From: a virus
IMG/VR virus record: IMGVR_UViG_3300035670_006354
Span: 1-28,854 of that record
DNA length: 28,854 nucleotides
Strand: one strand, 5' to 3'
This document shows, one piece after another, positions 2,296 through 24,540 of the stretch. The notes under the pieces were generated by a model that was given only the letters and a program-made list of their open reading frames with translations, was not told where the DNA came from and did no database searches. Numbering within the stretch: position 1 is the stretch's first letter; every line of letters begins with the position of its first letter. Made by a program: the position numbers and the translations under genes.

Positions 2296-3698
2296 TGGCA
2301 TCGCTCCTGGCTGGTATCTGCAAGCCCGAACCCATCACGGCCTTTCTCAACGACCGCTCCACCCAGCCCGTAGAGCGCCTCTCCTTCTACGACTGGCTCA
2401 AGCAGGTCTCCCCCAACGACAACTGGGACTGGCCACACCTCGCCTACATCCGCACCTACCTCGACGCGATCACCGCCGGCACTCTCAAACGGTTGATCGT
2501 CACCGTGCCGCCCCGCCATGGCAAAAGCCATCAAGGCACCATCCGCTATCCCGTCTATCGCTTGGAGCAAGACCCCACGCAGCGCGTGGTGATCGCTGCC
2601 TATTCGCAGACGCTGGCCAACACCTTCAGCCGTCAAGCTCGGCGGATTGCTTCGCAGCGCTTTGAGATCAGCAGCGACCGCAAATCTGTGGAGCAATGGG
2701 AGACACCCGCTGGTGGTGGTCTTCGCGCCGTTGGTGTAGGTGCAGGGATCACAGGTTTGGGAAGTTCGCTGACCCTGATCGACGACCCAACTAAGAGCAG
2801 AGAGGAGGCTGAATCCGAGGCCTACCGCGAGCGTGTTTGGAACTGGTATCGAGACGACCTTTACACCCGCCTCGAACCCGGTGGTGCCGTCGTGCTCACC
2901 ATGACGCGCTGGCATGAAGACGACCTGGCCGGCCGCATCCTCAATTCCGACGACGCGGACTCGTGGACGGTGGTGAACCTCCCGGCCATCGCAGAAGACA
3001 ACGACCCCCTCGGCCGCACCCCTGGCGCTGCGCTTTGCCCCGAGCGCTACGACCTCACCGCTCTGCAAGATCGCCGCCGCGTCCTAGGTGAATACGGCTT
3101 CAATGCCTTGTTCCAGCAGCGGCCCTCACCCCCAGCCGGTGGCCTGTTCAAGCGCTCCTGGTGGCAGACCTACCGCGAGCTGCCCCAGCTCGACCGCATC
3201 ATCACCAGCTGGGATCTCACCTTCAAAGACGGCCCCAACACTGACTACGTGGTGGGCCTCGTCATCGGTCAGAAAGGCGCCAGCTTCTACATCCTCGATT
3301 GCATCCGCGACCGCCTCGACATCACCGAGACGATCCCCGCCATCGTCAACACCTTCAACCGCTACAAGCCTGTCGCCACGGTGGTGGAAGACAAGGCGAA
3401 CGGCCCCGCTGTCATCGCCATGCTCAAGAGCAAGGTGGCCGGGCTGATCGCGGTCAACCCGCAAGGCGGGAAGTTCTCTCGCGCCTCAGCGATCTCCCCA
3501 ATGATCGAGGCCGGCAACGTCTTCCTGCCGGAGCGCAGCAGCTGGGCCTCGGCGCTCATTGAAGAAGCCGCTGCCTTCCCTAACGCTGCCCACGACGACC
3601 AAGTGGACGCGCTGAGCCAAGGCCTCTCCTGGCTCCGTTCACGCCCGGCGATCAGCACCGCTGCCGCTGTCTCCTACGGGCAGGCCGCCGCATGGTGA
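2295..3698 (+). CDS. terL: Terminase large subunit, 467 aa
   Basis: ATP-driven DNA packaging motor and nuclease that docks on the portal. ATG 2295 overlaps the TerS stop (TGATG), and I prefer it to the longer frame starting at 2169, which lies inside TerS. Walker A is VPPRHGKS (residues 71-78), Walker B is LTLIDDP (159-165), and a coupling-motif-like TMTRWHEDD follows at 202-210. The nuclease domain shows its three acidic clusters: SWDLTFKD (D307), VVEDKANG (E365/D366) and AAHDDQVDAL (D434/D435). Length is normal for the terminase_6/RNase H-like type. The C-terminal tail is Ala-rich. All key residues are present, so it should be active. It overlaps the next ORF. Confidence 0.96.
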   Translation: MASLLAGICKPEPITAFLNDRSTQPVERLSFYDWLKQVSPNDNWDWPHLAYIRTYLDAITAGTLKRLIVTVPPRHGKSHQGTIRYPVYRLEQDPTQRVVIAAYSQTLANTFSRQARRIASQRFEISSDRKSVEQWETPAGGGLRAVGVGAGITGLGSSLTLIDDPTKSREEAESEAYRERVWNWYRDDLYTRLEPGGAVVLTMTRWHEDDLAGRILNSDDADSWTVVNLPAIAEDNDPLGRTPGAALCPERYDLTALQDRRRVLGEYGFNALFQQRPSPPAGGLFKRSWWQTYRELPQLDRIITSWDLTFKDGPNTDYVVGLVIGQKGASFYILDCIRDRLDITETIPAIVNTFNRYKPVATVVEDKANGPAVIAMLKSKVAGLIAVNPQGGKFSRASAISPMIEAGNVFLPERSSWASALIEEAAAFPNAAHDDQVDALSQGLSWLRSRPAISTAAAVSYGQAAAW

Positions 3699-4312
3699 TG
3701 ACCAAACCCCAGCGCCACAGACCCTGCGATGGCCAGCTAAGCCTTCCGCTCCTCTCCGATGGCCCCTGGCAGCCGGCACCCCTGCCCACCGGCAAGCTGC
3801 CGCCGCGCAAGCCCAAGAGCACCCGTCCGAAAACCCTCCTCTACCGCGAGACCTGCCCCAGGCAGCGCCGCAAGGAGGAGCGCATGGTGCAGCAGCACAT
3901 CCCCCTGCTCAAGCTGATCATCAAGCAGCAGCACCACAAGTACAAGTGCATTGAGATCGAGGATCTTTACAGCCTTGGCCTAATCGGCCTGCTCAAGGCG
4001 GTGCGCAAATACGACGCCGCCACCGGCTACAAGTTCTCCACCATTGCCCTGCCTTTCATCCTTGGCGAGTGGCGGCACTACATCCGCGACCACAACTTCT
4101 GGCTGAAGGCACCCGGTGCGGTGCGCCAGCGCGGGATGCACGCCAGACGCCTACTGGAGCGCGGCGAGACCATGGCGCAGGTGTGCGTGAAGCTCGGCAT
4201 CAGCGCGGAAGAACTCAAGCTGGACCTACGCGCCACCGCCGGCATGGGGCATGAGCTGGGCGGCTTTGAGCTGCATTCCGCTGACGATCAGATGGACGCT
4301 GGCTGGCTCTAG
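3698..4312 (+). CDS. Sigma-70-like protein with regions 2 and 3 only (no region 4), 204 aa
   Basis: I chose ATG 3698 because it forms a TGATG overlap with terL, like many junctions here; ATG 3692 is also possible. Residues 1-60 are a basic, Pro-rich tail. Residues about 62-134 match sigma region 2 of the SigF/SigB group: QHIPLLKLIIKQ, EIEDLYSLGLIGLLKAVRKY, then GYKFSTIALPFILGEWRHYI and RDHN. Residues 135-176 resemble region 3 (LKAPGAVRQRG, then VKLGISAEEL). After that the protein ends in a short acidic tail, without region 4, which would bind the -35 box and the beta flap. Group 3 sigmas are usually about 230-260 residues with region 4. It could direct late transcription with a partner, or act as an anti-host factor. 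Its position inside the packaging genes is unusual. Confidence 0.82.
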   Translation: MTKPQRHRPCDGQLSLPLLSDGPWQPAPLPTGKLPPRKPKSTRPKTLLYRETCPRQRRKEERMVQQHIPLLKLIIKQQHHKYKCIEIEDLYSLGLIGLLKAVRKYDAATGYKFSTIALPFILGEWRHYIRDHNFWLKAPGAVRQRGMHARRLLERGETMAQVCVKLGISAEELKLDLRATAGMGHELGGFELHSADDQMDAGWL

Positions 4313-7749: not shown

Positions 7750-8232
7750 TTGGCCTTTATGTCCGCCATCGGTTACCGCCTGTGGATGGCGGATGCCGCC
7801 TCCGCTGATGACACCCATCCCACCAGCAGCACCGGCCTGACTGAGATCCTCAATCTCACCAACGCCGGCATTGAATCAACAACTGAGACCCAGACAGTCA
7901 CTGATTACTCAACTGCTGGTGGTTTCTCCAAAGCTGTGGCGACCTCGCAGAGCTACAGCATCCCCATGACCATGAACCTGGATACCGTGGATGCGGGGTA
8001 CAAGCTCCTGAAGGACGCTGCTCTGGATGCTCCGACCGGGCAATACGTGAAGTGGTATCGGGAATCGCCTGACCCTGGCGCTTCCGTGGCCACCGTGGAG
8101 AAGCACGCTGGCATCGGCATCATCACCGACTTCTCTGAGTCGATTGAGGCTGGTGGTATAGCGACTGTCTCATTTTCGCTCCAGGGATACGGGAGCCTGT
8201 CCTACACCGAAGCCACTGCACCCACCCCCTGA
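7750..8232 (+). CDS. Major tail tube protein (putative), 160 aa
   Basis: Forms the stacked rings of the tail tube. The sequence has the tail-tube pattern: N-terminal GYRLWMADAAS; LTEILNLTNAGIESTTETQT; TAGGFSKAVATSQSYSIPMT, then a beta strand series ending ITDFSESIEAGGIATVSFSL and QGYGSL. The last block resembles the conserved end of lambda gpV/TP901 tail tube folds. I chose TTG 7750 because AGGAG (7737-7741) is 8 nt upstream; ATG 7759 is the alternative. With no sheath gene nearby this supports a siphovirus. Its position before the neck genes rather than after them is slightly unusual. Confidence 0.78.
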   Translation: MAFMSAIGYRLWMADAASADDTHPTSSTGLTEILNLTNAGIESTTETQTVTDYSTAGGFSKAVATSQSYSIPMTMNLDTVDAGYKLLKDAALDAPTGQYVKWYRESPDPGASVATVEKHAGIGIITDFSESIEAGGIATVSFSLQGYGSLSYTEATAPTP

Positions 8233-8240
8233 GTTAGCTG

Positions 8241-8636
8241 ATGGCGAGCCCGCTGGATGCCTACAGCAACGGGGAGCTGACTGTTCAGCTCCCTGCAGCG
8301 GGCACCACCACCGACCCCTATACCGGCAACGTGGTGGCCAACACAACGGCCACCACGTACCGCGTCTTTGTCAAAGAGATCGGCGCCACCATCGGCCAGA
8401 ACTTCGCCGGCGTGGATGTCCGCACCTCACGCTTTGAGGGTTATGTCACCGACCCGCAGCTGCTGGATGATGCGGTGCTGGAAGGCATGACCGGCAGCCT
8501 GGAGATTGACGACGGCAGCACCTATGACGTGACGCTGGTGGCCTTGCGCAGCGCCTACGGCCGTGGCGGCATCGGTGCGCTGCTGGAGGCCAACGTCGGC
8601 CATGTGGTGGTGCTGGATGCGGTGCGGCAGGAGTGA
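8241..8636 (+). CDS. Putative head closure or head-tail joining protein, 131 aa
   Basis: A small beta-rich protein: YSNGELTVQLPAAGTTTDPY, then TYRVFVKEIGATIGQNFAGV and a segment VTDPQLLDDAVLEGMTGSLE followed by DGSTYDVTLVALRSAYGRGG. This arrangement, with an N-terminal NGELTVQL-type strand and a DGSTYDV turn, is like head closure/FII-type proteins encoded in neck cassettes. It lies eight bp after the tail tube and three bp before a neck/completion gene. Family identity is inferred from fold pattern and position rather than from a diagnostic motif. Confidence 0.55.
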   Translation: MASPLDAYSNGELTVQLPAAGTTTDPYTGNVVANTTATTYRVFVKEIGATIGQNFAGVDVRTSRFEGYVTDPQLLDDAVLEGMTGSLEIDDGSTYDVTLVALRSAYGRGGIGALLEANVGHVVVLDAVRQE

Positions 8637-8639
8637 GTC

Positions 8640-9053
8640 ATGAAGGTCACTGTTCAATTTGACTCTTCAGATATTGAACAGCGCCTTGAGCGTGCTTGGG
8701 AAAAGTTCAGCCAGCGCATAGAAGCCCAGTTCACTAAAGAGATCGGCACCAAGCAATTCACCTGGCCGACGCAATACAAGACCACACGCGGAAGCTACAA
8801 CCGCAAGGGCAAAGGCCGCGAAAGCGTCGGTAGCCCCAGGGACATCATTGATAGCGGTGCCCTTCGGCAAAGCATTCAGCGGACTCAGATCGGCCCATTT
8901 GTCTATCGCTACAGCTGGAACGTGGATTATTCCGTCTACGTGCTGAAGGGTTACCGCACCAGCGCGGGCAACCAGATGCCGCCACGGGATTGGATCACGC
9001 CAGCACTGGCCAAGCTTCCTCCTTTGGTGACATTGCAGAAGTTGATGCCATAA
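8640..9053 (+). CDS. Putative neck / tail completion protein (HK97 gp10-like), 137 aa
   Basis: The sequence resembles the gp10/minor tail completion group. It has an amphipathic N-terminus (SSDIEQRLERAWEKFSQRIE), a basic loop (YNRKGKGRESVGSPRDIIDS) followed by GALRQSIQRTQ, then beta strands YRYSWNVDYSVYVLKGYRTS and PPRDWITPAL. The signatures DSGALRQS, YSVYVLKGY and PPRDWI are typical of this family, in which an IDTGxLR motif and a PxRxW/F end recur. These proteins join the neck to the tail tube. ATG 8640 lies 3 nt after the previous stop, so translation is probably coupled. Confidence 0.68.
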   Translation: MKVTVQFDSSDIEQRLERAWEKFSQRIEAQFTKEIGTKQFTWPTQYKTTRGSYNRKGKGRESVGSPRDIIDSGALRQSIQRTQIGPFVYRYSWNVDYSVYVLKGYRTSAGNQMPPRDWITPALAKLPPLVTLQKLMP

Positions 9054-9083: not shown

Positions 9084-12032
9084 GTGGCGGAGTCAATTGG
9101 GCGGGCGGTCTTTGACCTAGAGCTGAATGACGGCGCCTTTCGTGCTGGACTCCGGCAAAGCCAAGAAAGCATCAAGACCTTTACCGATTCATCCGGTCGG
9201 TTGCGGGATGAGTTTGGGCGATATGTCAAGCAGCAGGATGCTGCAAATGCTTCGCTTGGTGGATTCAATCAGCAGCTGGGTGCAGCCAGTGGCATCAAGG
9301 GACTAACCAGTCAGATCGGCTCACTTGTCGCGCAGCTCGGAACGCTTGCTGTGGCAGCGCAAGCTTTCAATCAAATCAAGCAGGCCGATGATGCGGCCGC
9401 TGCCGTGCGCACACTTGGTGTTGATGCGGTTGCTCTCAATGACAATCTCAAGCTGGTCAGCGCTGGCTTAAAGGCCAACATCTCAACCGTTGAGCTGACC
9501 AAGGCTGCCTATGACGTGGCATCTGCAGGGTTTGCCAGTGCTGCTGATGCGACCGACATCCTTAAGGCGTCTGCGCTTGGTGCTAAGGGCGGCTTCTCCA
9601 GTATTCAAGTGGTCGCCGATGGTGCCACCTCTGTGCTCAATGCCTACGGCCTGAGCGCTAAGGAAGCGACCAAGATCATTGATGGGTTCATCACGACCCA
9701 AAACGACGGCAAGATCGTTGTTGGTCAATACGCAGACCGAATCGGTACGATTGCGCCGATTGCGGCGGCAGCCGGCGTCAGCATTGAAGAGCTGAATGCA
9801 GCTATATCAGCTGCGACAGCTCAGGGTGTTCCTGTTGAGGCAACATTTGCCGGCTTGCGGCAGGTGATCAGCAGCATCGTCAAACCAACGCAGGAGGCCA
9901 GCGAGCTGGCTCAGCGCTTAGGTCTGCAATTCAATGGAGCAAGCCTCCAAGCCAAAGGCCTTGGCGCCTTTCTGCAAGAGGTGGCAGCTGCAACCAAGGG
10001 CAGTGCAACCGCGAACAGTGTTTTGTTTGGCTCGGTTGAGGCGTTGACAGCAGTCCAGCCATTGCTGAACGATCAGCTTGCAACCTACAACAAGTTTCTG
10101 GACAACCAGAAGTCCAGCGCTGGAGCAGCAGCAGCAGCAGCAGATATTACAAGCAAAACAATCAGCAGTGGCGTTGAAGCGATTGGCAATGCGTTTAGCA
10201 ATCTGGTCACTAGCAGCAACTTCTCATCCATCGGCGTCTCATTGTCTGGGATTGCTGAGGCAATCAACGGCATTAGCTTGACACCAGCGCAGCAAGAGCT
10301 GACGGCACTTGAGTCAAGCATCAAGACCATTCAAACAGAAATAGATCGGCAAAAAGAATATGGCCTTGATACTAGCTTGGCCGAGAAGAGACTGAAGGAA
10401 CTGGAAAAGCGTGCCAATGTTGTCCGTGGTGTGATTGGTCAGCAGACGAATGTTGAGTCACTTAAGGGAGAGGCCATTGCCCTTGGAGAGCAGGCAGAGG
10501 CTCTCAAGCGAGCTGGTTTAAGTGGTGAACAACTAAACTCACAGCTTGGCGCGATTGCCAACGAAGTCGCCGCCCTAGAGGGCCGTGACATCTCGTTCAA
10601 TCTCCCCAATGGCACCCAGCTGGTTGGAACGCTTACACCAGCGCTAAAGAAATACGGCGAAGAGCTAGATGCAGCTGAAGCAAAATTGGCTCTGTTGCAG
10701 ACTGAGAAATCCCTAGCTGCGCCAGGGGTTGATACAGCTGCTCTAGATGCCAGCATTCAAGAGGTAGAGCAAAAGGTCGGTGGAATCAAGGCCAACATTA
10801 AGTTAGAAGCGCAAACTGCATCTATTGACTACGAGATCAAGCGGATTCAAGGTGAACTGAGAAAGCCCGGCCGCTTTATTGATGAGATCTTCGGAGGAAA
10901 ACTGGTAAAAGAATATCAAGGCCAGCTGAAGTCATTAGAAAATCAACGTGCGGTATTAGCGCAGATTGGCGCCAAGAACAAGGCAAATGCAGCTGAAACA
11001 CAAGCCAACGGCAAGCAGGAGCAGGCAGCGCAGAAACAGGCGAACAAGCAAGCTGAAGCGGCGGCTGAGACAGCCAGGCAGCAGGAAGAGGCGATCAGGA
11101 ACGAAAAGCTGACAACCTTGCAGCTTGACAATGCAAACCTGAAGGGCCAAGAGGCGCGTCTTGGTTTTTATGCCAAAGAAGTCACGCTGATTGGTCAGAT
11201 CAACAAAGTCCGCAACGACGCTGCCATTGGCCGCAGCGATACGATCAAGGGCCTACTGGATCAGGAGCTATCGCAAGCGCAGAAACTGGCCACCAATGAC
11301 GCGCAGCGGCGGGCGTTAGAGCTGGAGTTTGGTCAGAAAAAGTTCAACCAGACCGTTGCTGAGTTTGATCTCAAGGCTCGTGGCTTGGTCGCTGAGCAGC
11401 AGGCGCAGCAGGCCAGCTTGGCCTTTGAGCAGCAAAAAGCAGCGGCCGCAGGTCAGCGGCTTGAGAATGAAGCCCAGATCGCCCTGCTGCAAGCTGAGCA
11501 GCAGAACACTGAAAAAGGGACAGCTGCCACACAACGGCAGGTGGAGCTGGCCAAGCAGAACCTTGATCTGATCAAGGAAACCAACAGCCAAGAGCAAGGC
11601 CTGGGCGCCCTTCGCCAGCAGCTGCTCGCGGATCAGCAAGCCGCTGCCCGTGATCAGCTCCAGCAGCAACGCCTCCTAGCGCTGAACTCTCAAGCTGAGT
11701 TTGCATCCAAGGAGCAGCAGGCCCAGCTGCAGGCTGATGTCAATGCCGAACTGAGCCAGCAAGCGTCCTATGTCGATGCTGCAGCGGTATCGGCTCGCAA
11801 CTTCAAGAATCTGCTGCAGGAAGCGGCGCAGGCCCGTGGTGAGCTGTCCACATCCTTCCAGGCGCAGGTCAACACGGTGATTGACGGCAGCCAGCAGTTC
11901 TCCCAGATGAACAGCTTCCTCTCCACCATCGCCACCAACACCGCCAAGCCACCGGTGGTCAATGTCACCGTCAACAACAGCGGTACAAGGGGCAACTCAA
12001 GTGGTGCGGTGGTTAGCGGAACAGGCGGCTGA
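9084..12032 (+). CDS. Tail tape measure protein, 982 aa
   Basis: The longest gene in the window, as is usual for a tape measure; it sets tail length and is ejected with DNA. GTG 9084 is used, with a junction element 29 nt upstream. The N-terminus reads RAVFDLELNDGAFRAGLRQS as in TP901-type tape measures. Residues about 70-330 form the conserved alanine-rich core (KAAYDVASAGFASAADATDI and IAAAAGVSIEELNAAISAAT). Residues about 600-930 are long Gln/Ala-rich coiled coil, with an NKQAEAAAETARQQEEAI-type repeat. At roughly 0.15 nm per residue, 982 residues suggest a tail near 147 nm. An (GCA)6 run at 10125-10142 encodes six Ala. The C-terminus carries a Gly/Ser-rich tail. Confidence 0.93.
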   Translation: MAESIGRAVFDLELNDGAFRAGLRQSQESIKTFTDSSGRLRDEFGRYVKQQDAANASLGGFNQQLGAASGIKGLTSQIGSLVAQLGTLAVAAQAFNQIKQADDAAAAVRTLGVDAVALNDNLKLVSAGLKANISTVELTKAAYDVASAGFASAADATDILKASALGAKGGFSSIQVVADGATSVLNAYGLSAKEATKIIDGFITTQNDGKIVVGQYADRIGTIAPIAAAAGVSIEELNAAISAATAQGVPVEATFAGLRQVISSIVKPTQEASELAQRLGLQFNGASLQAKGLGAFLQEVAAATKGSATANSVLFGSVEALTAVQPLLNDQLATYNKFLDNQKSSAGAAAAAADITSKTISSGVEAIGNAFSNLVTSSNFSSIGVSLSGIAEAINGISLTPAQQELTALESSIKTIQTEIDRQKEYGLDTSLAEKRLKELEKRANVVRGVIGQQTNVESLKGEAIALGEQAEALKRAGLSGEQLNSQLGAIANEVAALEGRDISFNLPNGTQLVGTLTPALKKYGEELDAAEAKLALLQTEKSLAAPGVDTAALDASIQEVEQKVGGIKANIKLEAQTASIDYEIKRIQGELRKPGRFIDEIFGGKLVKEYQGQLKSLENQRAVLAQIGAKNKANAAETQANGKQEQAAQKQANKQAEAAAETARQQEEAIRNEKLTTLQLDNANLKGQEARLGFYAKEVTLIGQINKVRNDAAIGRSDTIKGLLDQELSQAQKLATNDAQRRALELEFGQKKFNQTVAEFDLKARGLVAEQQAQQASLAFEQQKAAAAGQRLENEAQIALLQAEQQNTEKGTAATQRQVELAKQNLDLIKETNSQEQGLGALRQQLLADQQAAARDQLQQQRLLALNSQAEFASKEQQAQLQADVNAELSQQASYVDAAAVSARNFKNLLQEAAQARGELSTSFQAQVNTVIDGSQQFSQMNSFLSTIATNTAKPPVVNVTVNNSGTRGNSSGAVVSGTGG

Positions 12033-16370: not shown

Positions 16371-16522
16371 TGGCTGAAGCGCAGGTCAATGTGCAGGTGA
16401 GCGGCAACGCTGGCAGCTCCGAGCTGCGCCAGCGATTGCAGGAGGTGGTGGATGCTAACCGCATTGCGATGAACCTGCGGATGCAAGCCAAGATCACGGT
16501 GATCAAGGCGCAGCGTGGTTAG
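16370..16522 (+). CDS. Small hypothetical protein, 50 aa
   Basis: ATG 16370 overlaps the preceding stop (TGATG), and TAG 16520-16522 overlaps the next gene's GTG 16515, so it is tightly placed between two structural genes. The sequence MAEAQVNVQVSGNAGSSELR continues as QRLQEVVDANRIAMNLRMQA and KITVIKAQRG, giving a beta strand followed by a helix. There is no membrane segment. It was too short for standard length cut-offs. The tiling on both sides and continuous coding-like codon use support it. The function is unknown; a small assembly or tail-tip factor is possible. Confidence 0.6.
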   Translation: MAEAQVNVQVSGNAGSSELRQRLQEVVDANRIAMNLRMQAKITVIKAQRG

Positions 16523-17720
16523 GCCGGTTGCACGATTCCGCCCAGCTGCACGACGCAGCGGTGGCGACTTGGTGCCGGTGTTTTTTATTGAGGAGAACGC
16601 AGCAGGGCTGATTGAGATTCGCAGTGGCATCCAGCCTGGCGGCATTGTGGCGACGCTGGATGTCTACAACGACGAACCGCAGACCTTGGCTCCAACAGCA
16701 TCAAGAGGCTTGCTGACGAGCTTGATTGCACAGGTCTCAGACTTCGGCGACCCTGCCCAGGGCGATGAGACAAGGATCTACAGCCAGAGCGAAACCATCG
16801 CAGAGAATCGACGATGGACGGTTCTCACCTGGCATGTCATCAATCAAGTCGCCTATGTGGCGATTGCGCGTGAGCACACTGTGCGGCACAGCGCGTCAGT
16901 AAGTTATCAATACTTTTCTTTTCAAGGCGAGCAGGGGCTTGAGTTTGGCCCTGTTGGCCCAGTCCTAAACGTGACGAGAAGCGGCACTCTCGACGTGGCT
17001 CTAGACATGGTGGCTTACAGCATCGACCTAAGTTCTGGCGAGGTGTCTATTGCTTCTGAGCTGGTCTATACGCACGAAACGACCAGCATTGCGTGGGGCG
17101 CTTTTTTAACACTTGTCGCCACGGCAGTGTCTACGCGGTATCCGGCACCTTTGGTGCTTTCGGGGCTGCTGCCATCAAGTCATCCGTTTAAGGATTGCGG
17201 GCCGTCCATCTGGAGCCTGACCAGCGTTGCCAGCGGGCCAACGATTGTGACTGGAAACAATCTGCAGCAGTGGAATGTGCTCACAACAAAGAACGAGATT
17301 TCTCGGTCGTTTGAAACTATGCTGGCTCTGAATACGGCCGCGTCGCGTCGTGTCATCCGCAAAGCCCTATTCGTCAGTGGGCCTGCGTTTGTGATTGAAC
17401 TAAGCACGTATCAAAACAGCAGCGCATCCACTTGCGATCTTTACAAGGACATCGGCTTGGCTTGGGCTGATTCCTTTGCCAGCTATGCCCCGAGTGCGCT
17501 ATTGGATCGTGATGCGGTCTTTGCCGATCTGGATGGCTTTAGCCCAGAGGATCAGGAGCTGTTTCTGGCGACCTCGCTAGAGCCACCTGCTGGTATTGCG
17601 CCGGGTGCATCCACTGCAGGCAGCACGTCTGATGCGATCTACTTTATGGAAACGGAAAACCGTCCTAACCTCAGCTTCATCAGCGGCAGCAGCACTTTGC
17701 GCTATTGGATTGTCGATTAG
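16515..17720 (+). CDS. Hypothetical tail-region protein, 401 aa
   Basis: GTG 16515 overlaps the end of the 50-residue ORF by 8 bases. It is a mixed but mostly beta-rich protein: LVPVFFIEENAAGLIEIRSG, then EGFR-unrelated Gly/Ser loops, VSYQYFSFQGEQGLEFGPVG, a central WGAFLTLVATAVSTRY, and a C-terminus with FSPEDQELFLATSLEPPAGI ending LRYWIVD. No motif matches a known enzyme. Codon use is slightly less GC-rich than in the neighbours. By position it is likely a tail-tip or receptor-interacting protein, but I do not recognise it. It is followed by a 32-bp gap and the scaffold-like gene. Confidence 0.55.
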   Translation: MVRPVARFRPAARRSGGDLVPVFFIEENAAGLIEIRSGIQPGGIVATLDVYNDEPQTLAPTASRGLLTSLIAQVSDFGDPAQGDETRIYSQSETIAENRRWTVLTWHVINQVAYVAIAREHTVRHSASVSYQYFSFQGEQGLEFGPVGPVLNVTRSGTLDVALDMVAYSIDLSSGEVSIASELVYTHETTSIAWGAFLTLVATAVSTRYPAPLVLSGLLPSSHPFKDCGPSIWSLTSVASGPTIVTGNNLQQWNVLTTKNEISRSFETMLALNTAASRRVIRKALFVSGPAFVIELSTYQNSSASTCDLYKDIGLAWADSFASYAPSALLDRDAVFADLDGFSPEDQELFLATSLEPPAGIAPGASTAGSTSDAIYFMETENRPNLSFISGSSTLRYWIVD

Positions 17721-17752: not shown

Positions 17753-18451
17753 ATGGCCGACGAGACACAACAAGCGCTGCAGCCAGAACAATCAACGCCA
17801 ACACCTGCTGTAGAGCCTTTGGGTGAAGCTGGTCTCTCGGCACTGCAGGAAGAACGCGAAGCCCGCAAAGCAGCCGAGCGCCGCCTCAAGGCGATTGAGC
17901 AGCAGCTGCAAGGCCTCGACCCCGATCAACTGCGCAACATCAAAGAAGCTCAAGAGCGGGAAGAGCGCCTGCGGGCTGAGATGGATCAGCGCATCAAAGA
18001 AGCGGCAGAAGCGGCCAAGGCCGAGGCTTATGCGCAGGTCAAGGTCAAGGATCAGAAGCTGGCCGAAGCCCTGGCCGAAAAGTCGGAGCTGTACCGCCAG
18101 CAGGCCCTCGCCAATGCCTTCCAGGTTGCCGGCGGCCGCAGTGGTGGCGCTGAGGATGGCACCACCTACTTCGATGCCTTGATGGGCGCCATCGGCAACC
18201 GCTTCAAGGTCACCGACAGCGGTGATGTGGTGGTGCTCAATGCCAACGGTGAACCGATGCTCACCGAAAACGGCGACACCATGAGTCCAGCGGCCTACCT
18301 CGAAGGCCTCAAGAGCAATGCGGTCTACGGCCACTTCTTTTCCCCCACCAGCAACGGCCATGGCGGCGGAATGCGCGGCAGCGGCAACCTGACGGCCGGC
18401 AGCCTCCAGGGCATGAGTGCCCTCGACAAGATCGGCTACGGGCTGGGTTGA
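17753..18451 (+). CDS. Putative capsid scaffolding protein, 232 aa
   Basis: The first 130 residues are a highly charged coiled coil (LQEEREARKAAERRLKAIEQ, then ELYRQQALANAF), as expected for a scaffold that directs prohead assembly and leaves or is degraded. The C-terminal part (TYFDALMGAIGNRFKVTDSG, VVVLNANGEPMLTENGDTMS, AAYLEGLKSNAVYGHFFSPT) with a Gly-rich tail resembles the capsid-binding end of phage scaffold proteins. It lacks a protease motif. It lies about 5 kb upstream of the capsid gene with chaperone, tip and fibre genes in between, which is unusual. The stop overlaps the next start (TGATG). Confidence 0.62.
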   Translation: MADETQQALQPEQSTPTPAVEPLGEAGLSALQEEREARKAAERRLKAIEQQLQGLDPDQLRNIKEAQEREERLRAEMDQRIKEAAEAAKAEAYAQVKVKDQKLAEALAEKSELYRQQALANAFQVAGGRSGGAEDGTTYFDALMGAIGNRFKVTDSGDVVVLNANGEPMLTENGDTMSPAAYLEGLKSNAVYGHFFSPTSNGHGGGMRGSGNLTAGSLQGMSALDKIGYGLG

Positions 18452-19014
18452 TGAGCGTCGATCTGCCCTTTGTGGTTGCGCCGGCCAAGCGCAGCAAGCG
18501 CCGCATTGGCACCAAGGCCACCGGCATCCTGGAGCTGCCCGTGCATGGCTCACTGCAGGTCGGTGAAGTGATCGCGGTCAGTGATCTGACCACCGAGAAC
18601 GATGCCGCCGTGGTGGTGGCCGCCAAGTTGGCGCAGCGGATCAGCGCTGAGCAGGAGATCACCATCCTCGAAGCCTTCGCCTTGGTGGAAGCCTCAGCGG
18701 TGGGCAGCAGCATGAGCCCGGAGCAGGATGCGATTCGCCTGCAATACCTCAGCGAGATTGCAGAGCTGACGCGCATCTATGTGCAGCGTGGTCGGGAGCG
18801 GATGCTGGCCAGCGTCACGGCCTTGATTCGCTACCGGCTGGAGCGGCCGCAGTGGAGCATGGCGGACACCAGCCAGCTGCCGCAGCCCCTGATGGATGCC
18901 CTGTTTGCCTTCTTTGAAGAGGAGCGCCAAGCCGGGCAGGACGACACCACCGCCCCGCCATCTGAGGAGGAGATAAAAAAGCAGCGGCCGGGGACTGGAA
19001 GCCAAGCCGCATAG
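18451..19014 (+). CDS. Tail assembly chaperone-like protein, frame 0 (G-like), 187 aa
   Basis: ATG 18451 in a TGATG overlap is preferred over TTG 18448. The protein has strands TKATGILELPVHGSLQVGEV, a set of helices rich in Gln/Glu, and a segment ASVTALIRYRLERPQWSMAD, followed by PLMDALFAFFEEERQ. Its end is Pro/Glu-rich (APPSEEEIKKQR). The pattern LELPVHGSLQVGEVIAV is like tail chaperones of siphoviruses. At its 3' end an A_AAA_AAG heptamer allows -1 frameshifting into the downstream ORF, exactly like lambda G/GT. Normal termination gives the short form. Position away from the tape measure is atypical, so the role is probable rather than certain. Confidence 0.62.
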   Translation: MSVDLPFVVAPAKRSKRRIGTKATGILELPVHGSLQVGEVIAVSDLTTENDAAVVVAAKLAQRISAEQEITILEAFALVEASAVGSSMSPEQDAIRLQYLSEIAELTRIYVQRGRERMLASVTALIRYRLERPQWSMADTSQLPQPLMDALFAFFEEERQAGQDDTTAPPSEEEIKKQRPGTGSQAA

Positions 19015-19025
19015 ATTGGCCGGCC
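18964..19025 (+). promoter_or_regulatory. Programmed -1 ribosomal frameshift site
   Basis: The slippery heptamer A_AAA_AAG spans 18975-18981 in phase with the frame-0 codons ATA-AAA-AAG. An AGGAGG (18965-18970) lies 4 nt upstream and can act as a stimulatory internal Shine-Dalgarno. Downstream, GGCCGG (18986-18991) can pair with CCGGCC (19020-19025), or GCGGC (18984-18988) with GCCGC (19006-19010). After slippage the new frame reads Ala-Ala-Ala-Gly-Asp-Trp and continues without a stop to 19664. The -1 frame upstream is closed by TGA 18963-18965. Confidence 0.75.
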
Positions 19026-19664
19026 CTGTTCTGGGCCTTGGTCAAGGCCTTCCCCGGCCAGTTCCATCGCAGCACCTTTGCAAGCGAGAAGGTGGTGGTG
19101 GTGATGGCGGCGCATCGGAGCTTGCTGGAGCTGCAGCGGCAAGAGCTGCAACTGCAGGAGCTGCAAGGAGCGCAGCTGTGCAGCCTGCTGTACAACATCA
19201 ACCGCGATGCCAAGAAGGGCAAAGCCACCAGCCATCAGGACTGGCTGTTCTTCCGCACAGAGGAGCGCAGCGAAGAGGATCAGCTACCAGCGGTGGTGGC
19301 GCACATCTGCTTGGCCTTGCGGCATGAGGAGCAGCTACCGCCGTTGTTGATCGGCATCTGGCGCGATGTGGTCAAGCGAGCAGCGGTGCCGGCTCAGGTG
19401 CCGGAGATCCGGGCGCTGGTCAGCGCAGATCGCAATCTGGTGGTAGTGGCCCCCAGCTGGGAAGGCGGCCACGTGCGCGGCTTTATTGCAGCCAAAGGGC
19501 AAACCCCCGGCACCAGCGTGGAGCTAAGCGACATTGACCGCCCGCTGCTGCGCTACCAGCTGCGTCTGCCTGCAAGGCTGCAGCCCATCCACTTTGAAGC
19601 CGGTGTGCTGCTGCTCCATGAGCAGGCCAGTGCTGGCCGGCTGTTAGGGGCAACTTCAACCTAA
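18966..19664 (+). CDS. Frameshift extension (GT-like) of the tail assembly chaperone
   Basis: This frame is open from 18966 to TAA 19662-19664. It has no ATG or GTG near its beginning: the first possible start is TTG 19038, with no convincing ribosome site, which argues that it is expressed as a -1 extension of the preceding gene. The fusion would be 404 residues: 177 from frame 0 plus 227 from here. The added part begins AAAGDWKPSRIDWPALFWAL, continues with a Gln/Leu helix (ELQRQELQLQELQGAQLCSL) and a second, beta-rich half (PEIRALVSADRNLVVVAPSW, HVRGFIAAKGQTPGTSVELS). It is longer than usual T domains. The C-terminus overlaps a junction element. Confidence 0.65.
   Translation, partial: GGDKKAAAGDWKPSRIDWPALFWALVKAFPGQFHRSTFASEKVVVVMAAHRSLLELQRQELQLQELQGAQLCSLLYNINRDAKKGKATSHQDWLFFRTEERSEEDQLPAVVAHICLALRHEEQLPPLLIGIWRDVVKRAAVPAQVPEIRALVSADRNLVVVAPSWEGGHVRGFIAAKGQTPGTSVELSDIDRPLLRYQLRLPARLQPIHFEAGVLLLHEQASAGRLLGATST
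19649..19661 (+). repeat. Recurrent junction element, copy 8 (GGCAACTTCAACC)
   Basis: Overlaps the last codons of the frameshift ORF (…Gly-Ala-Thr-Ser-Thr-stop) and begins 25 nt before the GTG at 19674. Confidence 0.55.
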
Positions 19665-21180: not shown

Positions 21181-21405
21181 ATGGCCAACACGATCAAACT
21201 CAAGAGTTCTGCAGTTGCAGGCAAGGTGCCAACTACCAGCGATCTAGAGCTGCGTGAGTTGGCAATCAACACCTACGACGGCGCTGTCTACATGAAGCGC
21301 AATGCGGGCTCTGATGAGATCATTCGGATTGCCTTTGGCAATCAGGACTATGGGCTGATCACGGGAGGCTCCAGCGGGACGTTGGACTTCGGCGCCCTTT
21401 CCTGA
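21181..21405 (+). CDS. Free-standing fibre N-terminal domain protein, 74 aa
   Basis: The sequence (ANTIKLKSSAVAGKVPTTSD, then LELRELAINTYDGAVYMKRN) is clearly related to the N-terminus of the preceding fibre and to the Mtd-N-type RRGT module, but the protein ends shortly after the domain with FGNQDYGLITGGSSGTLDFG. It could be a connector or cap on the tail tip, or a remnant of a shortened fibre. ATG 21181 is preceded by a degenerate junction element, and the stop overlaps the next start (TGATG). No catalytic motif is present. Confidence 0.75.
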   Translation: MANTIKLKSSAVAGKVPTTSDLELRELAINTYDGAVYMKRNAGSDEIIRIAFGNQDYGLITGGSSGTLDFGALS

Positions 21406-23021
21406 TGGCCACTCAAGTACAGAACCGTCGCGGCACGACTGCGGAGCACAGCAGCTTCACGGGTGCTGTTGGTGAGCTAACGGTTGACACCGACAAGGAT
21501 GTGTTAGTGGTCCACGACGGCAGCACGGCCGGTGGGCACCCGATGCTTAAGCAGGACGGGAGCAACAGCGCTTTGGCGTTGGGTTCCGCGTCTAGCCCCA
21601 GCCTGAAGTTCTCCGGTGACCCCAACACCGGCATCTACTCCCCCGGCGCAGATCAATTAGCCATCTCGTCTAACGGGGTTGGGAGACTCTTCATTGATGC
21701 GAGTGGGAATGTTGGTGTTGGCACTGCGACGTTTGGTAATGCAATATTTCAAGTACAAACGCCTACTACTTTATCAACAACAGCCGATACAGGAGTAAGC
21801 TTTACAAATATCTCCACCAAAACATATCCAACCACGTCAGGCTTTAATGTCACACCTGGTTTAGCTCAAAGCATTGAGTTGGGGACGGCTCAAGTAATAG
21901 ACACCGTAACGCCTGGCGGTTTTAATAACGTTTACGGCACCCGTTTTCAATTAACAAAATCAGCGGGAAATACGCAGGATATTGAGCGGTTGTATTTTTT
22001 CGGGCTACACCAAACATTCAACTGGACGGACGGTAACACCTGCAAGCAGTACGTTGCAATTACTGATATATTTACTTACGGCGGCATCAACGCCAACGGT
22101 AGGACAACGTCTCTTATCGAGGGGTTTAGCGTTAACCTAACTCCACCCGCTGGCGGCACGCAGACTATTGCCATCGTAGGTGGCTTAAAAGCAGTAAGTA
22201 TTAGACCAGGAGATGGATCTACGGTTAACATTACAAATGGCACTGGAGTCCAGCCAAATTTATCTATATTCAACACTGCGTCTGGAACTAAAACCATAAA
22301 CGTCTCCAATTATTCTTTCTTTGAAACGTCTCCGTATTGGGGAGTCCAAGGGTCAGGCGGAACCTTAAATGCAACAATTACAAATCTTTTTGGTTTAAGA
22401 CTGCGGCCTCCTACTGGCAGTGCAGGGCTGACAATTACCAACAACTGGGGACTCTATCAAGAGTGGTCCTCTGCCAAGAATTGGTTTGCTGGAGCCTCTA
22501 ACCAATTTCCGAACATCACAACAACCGCCTCCGGCGCTAACGCCTTCCTTGATAGCGCTGACTCTAACAGGCTCTACCTCTCCACTTCCTCAATCGCCTA
22601 CAAACGGGACGTAGAGGATCTTGATAGCACTCTTGCGGACAAAATTCTGGGCCTGCGCCCGGTTTGGTATCGCTCAAAGTGTAAAACTGACTGCCAGGAA
22701 TGGTCTTGGTACGGTTTAATCGCGGAAGAGGTAGCTGAGGTTGATCCACGCTTCGTTCATTATGGATACCAAGAAGATGCTTACGAACTGGTAGATGTTA
22801 CCGAGACTGTTCAGCTTCAGCCAGATGATCCACGCCTGAAGGAAGGAATTGAAACAGAAGAGGTGACGCGCCAACGGCGTCAGTTGAAAGCCGACGCACA
22901 GCGAGTCCCCAACGGCGTTGCTTACGAGCGCCTGGTGGTGCCGTTATTGGATATCATCAAGCGACAGAAGAGCCAACTTGAATCTTTTGAAGCACGCCTG
23001 GCAGCTCTTGAGGCCCAATAG
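21405..23021 (+). CDS. Tail fibre/spike with C-terminal S74 self-cleaving chaperone, 538 aa
   Basis: N-terminal attachment domain: VQNRRGTTAEHSSFTGAVGE, LTVDTDKDVLVVHDGSTAGG. Next comes the fibre motif TGIYSPGADQLAISSNGVGR and LFIDASGNVGVGT. The middle (about residues 110-380) is a receptor-binding region encoded by strikingly AT-rich DNA. The C-terminus from about residue 385 is an intramolecular chaperone of the S74 family: SDSNRLYLSTSSIAYKRDVE, LRPVWYRSK, GLIAEEVAEVDPRFVHYG, and a final coiled coil (RQKSQLESFEARLAALEAQ). The Ser-Lys dyad with spacing of five is S395/K400, so cleavage before S395 should release the chaperone after trimerisation. It is the host-specificity protein. Confidence 0.9.
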   Translation: MATQVQNRRGTTAEHSSFTGAVGELTVDTDKDVLVVHDGSTAGGHPMLKQDGSNSALALGSASSPSLKFSGDPNTGIYSPGADQLAISSNGVGRLFIDASGNVGVGTATFGNAIFQVQTPTTLSTTADTGVSFTNISTKTYPTTSGFNVTPGLAQSIELGTAQVIDTVTPGGFNNVYGTRFQLTKSAGNTQDIERLYFFGLHQTFNWTDGNTCKQYVAITDIFTYGGINANGRTTSLIEGFSVNLTPPAGGTQTIAIVGGLKAVSIRPGDGSTVNITNGTGVQPNLSIFNTASGTKTINVSNYSFFETSPYWGVQGSGGTLNATITNLFGLRLRPPTGSAGLTITNNWGLYQEWSSAKNWFAGASNQFPNITTTASGANAFLDSADSNRLYLSTSSIAYKRDVEDLDSTLADKILGLRPVWYRSKCKTDCQEWSWYGLIAEEVAEVDPRFVHYGYQEDAYELVDVTETVQLQPDDPRLKEGIETEEVTRQRRQLKADAQRVPNGVAYERLVVPLLDIIKRQKSQLESFEARLAALEAQ

Positions 23022-23610: not shown

Positions 23611-24540
23611 GTGGCACTTACCACCATCGAGGCCGGCAAACTGGGCCGGCAGGATTCCCTCAAGCAGGGGATCGTTGAAATCTTCCGCGAAGGCAAGCTG
23701 TACGCAGCCATGCCTCAGCTGTCGGTGACGGGCACCGGCATTCACTACAACCAAGAGCAGACCCTCCCCGGCATCGGTTTCCGTGGTGTCAACGAGGCCT
23801 ACTCCGAGTCCACCGGCATCATCAACCCCCAGTCTGAAGCTCTCAAGATCTTCGGCGGTGATGTGGACATCGACCTGGCTCTTGAGGCCATGCAAGGCCC
23901 TGAGATCCGCACCGCTCAGGTGGCGATGAAGGTCAAGGCTGCTCGCCTCAAGCTGGAGAAGACCCTGATCAAGGGTGATTCCACCAGCAACGTCAATGAG
24001 TTCGACGGTCTGCAGGCCCGCATCCCCTCGGGTTCTTCGCAGCTGATCACCAACGCCGCCAACGGCGGTGGCCTGAGCCTCGCTGCCCTCGATGAGCTGA
24101 TCGACGCGGTGGATGAGACCGTGGGCAACCCGGTGCTGATCATGAACCGCACCCTGCGTCGCCGCCTCTCGGCTGCTGCTCGCGTGGCTGCTGCGGTGGG
24201 CAACCTGCAGTACGGCCAGGACGCCCTAGGCCGTCAGCAGCTCTCCTACAACGGCGTGCCGATCATCGACATCGACCACGATGAAGCCGGTGCTCAGATC
24301 ATGGCCTTCAACGAGACCCAAGGCAGCAGCAGCGCTTGCAGCTCGGTCTACTGCGTGGCCGCTGGCGTCAATGGCGCCACTCTGATCACCAACGGTGGCA
24401 TCGGCGTGCGCGATCTGGGCGAGATCGACACCAAGCCCGTGCGTCGCATCCGCGTGGAGGCCTACCTCGGCATGGCCGTGTTCCACCCCCGTGCCATTGC
24501 ACGTCTGGCTGGCATCACTAATGCCGCTGTCGCTGCCTGA
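23611..24540 (+). CDS. Major capsid protein (HK97 fold), 309 aa
   Basis: GTG 23611 is the most upstream start that keeps the natural N-terminus (ALTTIEAGKLGRQDSLKQGI). The sequence has the HK97-type order: an N-arm and E-loop region (GVNEAYSESTGIINPQSEAL, KIFGGDVDIDLALEAMQGPE), a long spine helix (AQVAMKVKAARLKLEKTLIK), a P domain with GSSQLITNAANGGGLSLAAL and a strand PVLIMNRTLRRRLSAAARVA. An A-domain follows with RQQLSYNGVPIIDIDHDEAG and the final KPVRRIRVEAYLGMAVFHPR. Length about 309 is normal for a capsid without a long delta domain. Its position after the fibre genes, far from portal, is unusual. Confidence 0.9.
   Translation: MALTTIEAGKLGRQDSLKQGIVEIFREGKLYAAMPQLSVTGTGIHYNQEQTLPGIGFRGVNEAYSESTGIINPQSEALKIFGGDVDIDLALEAMQGPEIRTAQVAMKVKAARLKLEKTLIKGDSTSNVNEFDGLQARIPSGSSQLITNAANGGGLSLAALDELIDAVDETVGNPVLIMNRTLRRRLSAAARVAAAVGNLQYGQDALGRQQLSYNGVPIIDIDHDEAGAQIMAFNETQGSSSACSSVYCVAAGVNGATLITNGGIGVRDLGEIDTKPVRRIRVEAYLGMAVFHPRAIARLAGITNAAVAA

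Follow-up and report, generated by a model that had tools for sequence, protein, structure and literature searches.

The window analysed here, a 28,854-base IMG/VR virus record, carries two overlapping open reading frames, ORF1 and ORF2, the second of which lies in the -1 frame relative to the first and is open throughout, from just upstream of a slippery heptamer near the end of ORF1 (Table 1). The A_AAA_AAG heptamer was originally predicted to be in phase with the ORF1 ATG, which is correct to the base. After slippage the chain resumes at GCA 18981 to give a product of 404 residues, 227 of them the extension, in addition to the 187-residue zero-frame product; on recomputation these lengths, as well as the frame and open extent of ORF2, agree with the prediction. 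In a scan of 30 window genes no other in-phase heptamer had a -1 extension longer than 41 aa (for this site it is 229 aa as counted in that scan).

Table 1. Features of the window and positions of the homologous pairs in isolate genomes
Feature	Position	Strand	Remarks
Large terminase gene	start 2169		
Sigma-factor-like gene	3692-4312		phrog_351; directly after large terminase gene
Portal gene	start 4812		
MuF-like gene	start 6287		
Major tail protein-like gene	7750-8232	+	expected partner of the extension
Neck1-like gene	8640-9053		resembles Neck1/tail-completion protein
Tape measure gene	9084-12032	+	expected chaperone partner
Further tail-region genes	between tape measure and scaffold-like genes		
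401-aa gene	16515-17720		no family match
Head scaffold-like gene	17753-18451	+	phrog_206, E 2.3e-24; directly upstream of ORF1
ORF1	18451-19014	+	putative gpG-like tail assembly chaperone, zero-frame product, 187 aa; ATG 18451, TAG 19012-19014
SD-like AGGAGG	18965-18970	+	4 nt before heptamer; not conserved
ORF2	18966-19664	+	-1 frame, entered at 18981 upon slippage; putative T-like extension, 227 residues
Slippery heptamer A_AAA_AAG	18975-18981	+	AAAAAAG; in phase relative to ATG 18451
5' arm GGCCGGGGA	18986-18994	+	candidate long-range stimulatory stem
3' arm TCCCCGGCC	19051-19059	+	candidate long-range stimulatory stem
Gene after ORF2	19674		next after ORF2
Fibre-like gene	start 20303		
Tail-fibre-like gene	21405-23021		no match in any related locus compared
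Major capsid protein gene	23611-24540	+	phrog_212, E 9.5e-73; downstream of pair
PSS2 pair	GQ334450 34537-35765		ORF064/ORF065 (ACT65626/ACT65627)
S-CBS2 pair	GU936714 9251-10413		gp015/gp016
S-CRES1 pair	OQ587939 36695-37878		gp72/gp73
S-CRES3 pair	OQ587941 36772-37913		gp79/gp80

The pair sits between the scaffold and capsid genes, and the tape measure gene ends ~6.4 kb upstream. Six related contigs (L002, L006, L010, L012, L024 and L046) share the gene order around the pair, which thus is not an assembly error. In cyanophage PSS2 the pair is ~18 kb from the tape measure gene; in S-CBS2, S-CRES1 and S-CRES3 it is upstream of the tape measure gene with the major tail gene in between; and in contig L030 it is flanked by Neck1-like and major-tail-like genes, with the tape measure gene next. 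The two window genes that adjoin the tape measure gene (8241-8636 and 8640-9053) were considered as the true chaperones and rejected, since they do not overlap and have no in-phase heptamer, and the latter is Neck1-like. Scans for tRNAs and Rfam families were empty.

Scans with ORF1, ORF2 and their alignments found 45 distinct related viral contigs with the pair, and in 45/45 of these an in-phase heptamer lies within the ORF1/ORF2 overlap, with ORF2 in the -1 frame. Isolate phages found by protein search to have the pair are cyanophage PSS2 and the Synechococcus phages S-CBS2 and S-CRES1-3; an in-phase slippery heptamer is also present in the overlap in 4/4 isolate genomes (PSS2, S-CBS2, S-CRES1 and S-CRES3; S-CRES2 is left out of this count). 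The 45 contigs and the window reduce to 30 distinct pairs, or 34 with the four isolates, and ORF1 identity to the window ranges from 20 to 97% across the other distinct pairs. The heptamers of the 30 comprise 12 A_AAA_AAG, 1 A_AAA_AAA and 17 G_GGA_AAG, all near ORF1 codon 173-200. Each of these 30 ORF1s, that of the window included, contains exactly one efficient in-phase heptamer, which is at this site, and none was found elsewhere in their 6364 codon positions; when the codons of these ORF1s are shuffled, only ~9% of shuffles contain one at any position. Among the isolates, G_GGA_AAG is the sole heptamer in the PSS2 region and is also found in S-CRES3, and S-CBS2 and S-CRES1 have A_AAA_AAG followed directly by TAA. 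ORF1 coding past the heptamer varies from 0 to 66 codons; the stop follows the heptamer directly in L026, L027 and L052 as well as in S-CBS2 and S-CRES1, and the ORF1 stop is shifted in L012 and L014. Comparison of relatives had been suggested as a check on the frameshift reading. All homologues checked keep both the heptamer and its phase, as well as a -1 ORF that lacks a start of its own; this comparison therefore fails to refute the frameshift and instead supports it.

The two main slippery sequences have been exchanged at a nearly fixed codon position. On a FastTree tree of 32 concatenated ORF1/ORF2 pairs, some branches of which are weakly supported, A-type and G-type heptamers are interleaved and at least two switches are needed; the window clade, all of it A-type, neighbours lineages of the G type, and S-CBS2 and S-CRES1 (both A-type) cluster with S-CRES3 (G-type). 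The encoded residues differ with the heptamer type, i.e. Gly-Lys for G_GGA_AAG and Lys-Lys for A_AAA_AAG/A. What is preserved across the switches is the capacity of two tRNAs to re-pair one base back, and such repeated exchange with changing residues constitutes a natural experiment which indicates that slipperiness, rather than the exact sequence or the residues, is selected.

The absence of a usable ORF2 start bears on the alternative that ORF2 is an independent gene initiated within the overlap, at TTG 19038 or at GTG/ATG 19092-19104, and that the heptamer is incidental. ORF2 was predicted to have no ATG or GTG near its beginning, and in the window the first of either is a GTG at codon 38; candidates for internal initiation exist at the codon 20 TTG, the only earlier one, and at the GTG/ATG codons 38-42, and the GenBank annotators of PSS2, S-CBS2 and the S-CRES phages did select internal starts. 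However, the TTG is absent in L004, L006, L011 and L012, and no ATG, GTG or TTG ahead of ORF2 codon 38 is common to the relatives. Moreover, codons 14-38, which precede any common start, show 173 synonymous vs 21 nonsynonymous single changes where 23% synonymous would be expected without constraint, as counted over all pairwise comparisons of ten window-lineage sequences from the ORF1 stop to codon 38; these counts are not independent because pairs share ancestry, but the direction is clear and strongly indicates purifying selection in the -1 frame. Given also that every homologue has the heptamer, switched between two slippery types, an independent ORF2 is very improbable. About equally small is the chance that the long product arises from RNA polymerase rather than ribosomal slippage on the A6 run. 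The window site does have six As and that of L024 seven, but efficient polymerase slippage generally needs a longer run than six As, and in 17/30 distinct pairs as well as in PSS2 and S-CRES3 phase and position are unchanged although the heptamer is G_GGA_AAG, without a long homopolymer. An indel introduced in sequencing or assembly, or a gene in decay that a frameshift mutation has split, might be suspected in a single-contig metagenomic record with a homopolymer at the junction; the recurrence of these frames in the 45 related contigs and the four isolate genomes refutes this and leaves it a negligible probability. The comparative evidence thus argues very strongly for programmed -1 frameshifting, and it appears almost certain from the sequences compared that ribosomes shift frame in this way at the heptamer.

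Candidate stimulators of slippage were sought on both sides of the site. The AGGAGG upstream is present at the predicted 4 nt spacing; its conservation does not hold, since it is lost in five relatives (L006, L007, L024, L025 and L033), and it encodes part of a Glu run. The SD-like stimulator of dnaX is spaced by ~10 nt, so that the window motif, too close for the dnaX type and not conserved, is probably not a stimulator. Downstream, the GC-only local stems 3-5 nt from the heptamer that had been proposed are better replaced by a long-range stem kept in the window lineage, which is what recurs there in folding instead of short local hairpins. The two arms can pair in a 9-bp stem that follows the heptamer after a spacer of 4 nt and encloses a branched loop of 56 nt; its core of 8 bp is found in 10/10 sequences tested from the window lineage, in L024 by way of a G-U pair, and shows weak covariation, and L025 has a different 10-bp stem with its 3' end near the same position. 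The folding excess at the site is small (mean z -0.66), yet the lowest of 55 offsets, and because of this small excess and because both arms are also coding the stem is a candidate only. A stem common to the G_GGA_AAG lineage was rejected as not significant in most members. The base 3' of the heptamer is C in the window, and a 3' C is reported to be more shift-prone than U in E. coli (PMC5009743).

The proteins themselves resemble known families little. ORF1 has no convincing Pfam or PHROG match; its predicted structure (pLDDT 83), a beta hairpin followed by helices, has no significant fold match in PDB, and its BFVD match to the Xylella phage Sano "pre-tape measure frameshift protein G" is not significant (E 0.45). 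PDB searches by sequence and by fold gave nothing useful. All 30/30 ORF2 homologues match phrog_34388, of unknown function, and 12/30 match Phage_tail_T (best E 0.0012), as does the PSS2 extension (E 0.00064), all below the Pfam cut-off; profile comparison to lambda G and T (hhalign) gave no significant similarity. ORF2 is modelled (pLDDT 73) as helical to about residue 135 and beta thereafter, and its top BFVD structural neighbours are F4YCJ6 (181 residues) and C7F4B1 (177 residues), which agree in length with S-CBS2 gp015 and with PSS2 ORF065 as deposited and are presumably those proteins. The S-CRES ORF2s are deposited as "tail assembly protein". The published list of P-SS2 virion proteins has ORFs 061-063 and 066-069 and lacks 064 and 065 (PMC2784084 Table 2), and G/GT-type chaperones are likewise missing from mature virions (PMC5009743).

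The products are very probably a tail assembly chaperone, because relatives have the pair in a neck, major tail and tape-measure context, the P-SS2 homologues are not listed among its virion proteins, and the Phage_tail_T matches, though weak, point the same way. The predicted identity is thus well supported by context and published virion proteomics, and sequence similarity lends it little. phrog_34388 would accordingly now have a likely function as the T-like extension of a tail chaperone. That the -1 frameshift is real while the proteins serve head assembly or another non-virion role is improbable. Such a role would suit an ORF1 without known family and the location of the pair between the scaffold-like (17753-18451) and major capsid (23611-24540) genes, not beside the tape measure gene, but the pairs of S-CBS2, the S-CRES phages and L030 are near neck, major tail and tape-measure genes, the ORF2s have Phage_tail_T-like matches, and a -1 frameshift combined with absence from virions is the signature of tail chaperones (PMC5009743).

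In the tail-chaperone reading, which as a whole is held with high confidence, most ribosomes would translate ORF1 to the UAG at 19012, yielding the chaperone of 187 residues. The remaining, smaller share, in which tRNA-Lys occupies the P and A sites on AAA AAG, would slip back one base, perhaps helped by the downstream long-range stem, and read through ORF2 to give the 404-residue protein. By analogy with lambda the short protein would coat the tape measure protein, the long protein would recruit the major tail protein, and neither would stay in the virion. The arrangement was originally described as that of lambda G/GT, and this stands for the overlapping ORFs, the -1 shift and the X_XXY_YYZ heptamer that lies in phase close to the end of the first ORF; lambda's own G_GGA_AAG is even found in several relatives, and the PSS2 homologues, too, are not among the detected virion proteins. 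It does not stand for position: the window pair is separated from the tape measure gene instead of being flanked by it and the major tail gene, and in this respect the resemblance to lambda is incomplete. Also unlike lambda, there is no significant similarity to G or T beyond the sub-threshold Phage_tail_T matches, and the window extension is 227 aa vs ~140 with a predicted C-terminal beta region. A rather unlikely possibility is that the pair represents a separate, sequence-unrelated family of cyanosiphovirus tail chaperones, moved out of the tail module to between scaffold and capsid genes, whose extra C-terminal beta region may couple tail assembly to e.g. head/neck joining.

PSS2 ORF064/ORF065 is homologous to the window pair (~30% identity) and shares with it the -1 frames, the in-phase heptamer and the distance from the tape measure gene, but has the G_GGA_AAG type and is deposited as two hypothetical proteins. 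The homologous pairs of S-CBS2, S-CRES1 and S-CRES3 are also in -1 frames and differ from the window in lying just upstream of the major tail and tape measure genes and, in S-CBS2 and S-CRES1, in the stop directly after the heptamer. In the deposits of all four phages each half is a gene by itself and the second (ORF065 in PSS2) is given an internal start; the -1 reading extends this second half upstream to the heptamer. A_AAA_AAG, the heptamer of the window, is also that of the E. coli dnaX and IS911 -1 frameshift cassettes. These differ from the window in gene function and in that its SD-like motif is 4 nt away and not conserved and its evidence for structure is weaker; the downstream structure in IS911 is a three-way junction (PMC5009743).

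The mechanism is a textbook one, and what is new is the family, the exchange of heptamers in nature and the displacement of the pair. Frameshift annotation is absent from the PSS2, S-CBS2 and S-CRES isolate records examined, where the separate halves are mostly hypothetical proteins, the PSS2 paper does not contain the word "frameshift", and a literature search, which did not extend to subscription papers, returned no report of this frameshift in cyanophages. The tail-chaperone frameshift would thus be extended to PSS2/S-CBS2/S-CRES-like cyanosiphoviruses, and the displaced pair shows that lambda gene order alone is not a sufficient guide in the search for such chaperones. The isolated relatives suggest that the host is a picocyanobacterium.

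Some further features of these genomes were observed. The product of 16515-17720 has 26-53% identity in L002, L006, L010 and L012, where neighbouring genes mostly have 75-99%, and this would be a hypervariable gene between conserved ones; the unmatched tail-fibre-like gene points to an apparent fibre exchange. One phage contig with the pair, L069 (PBTG01000079.1), has been assigned to a Myxococcales MAG, probably through mis-binning of a virus contig, and is probably the same sequence as IMG/VR 2775506767_000005. PSS2, like the window, has a sigma factor gene (type III) after the large terminase gene. PSS2 83401-84141 (L035:39402-40142), deposited as "host specificity protein J", is probably the scaffold, since it has a head scaffolding match (phrog_206, E 1.9e-29) and a match to a major head protein (phrog_212) comes after it. 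The naming in the PSS2 paper of the 1500-aa ORF030 as major capsid protein then appears doubtful.
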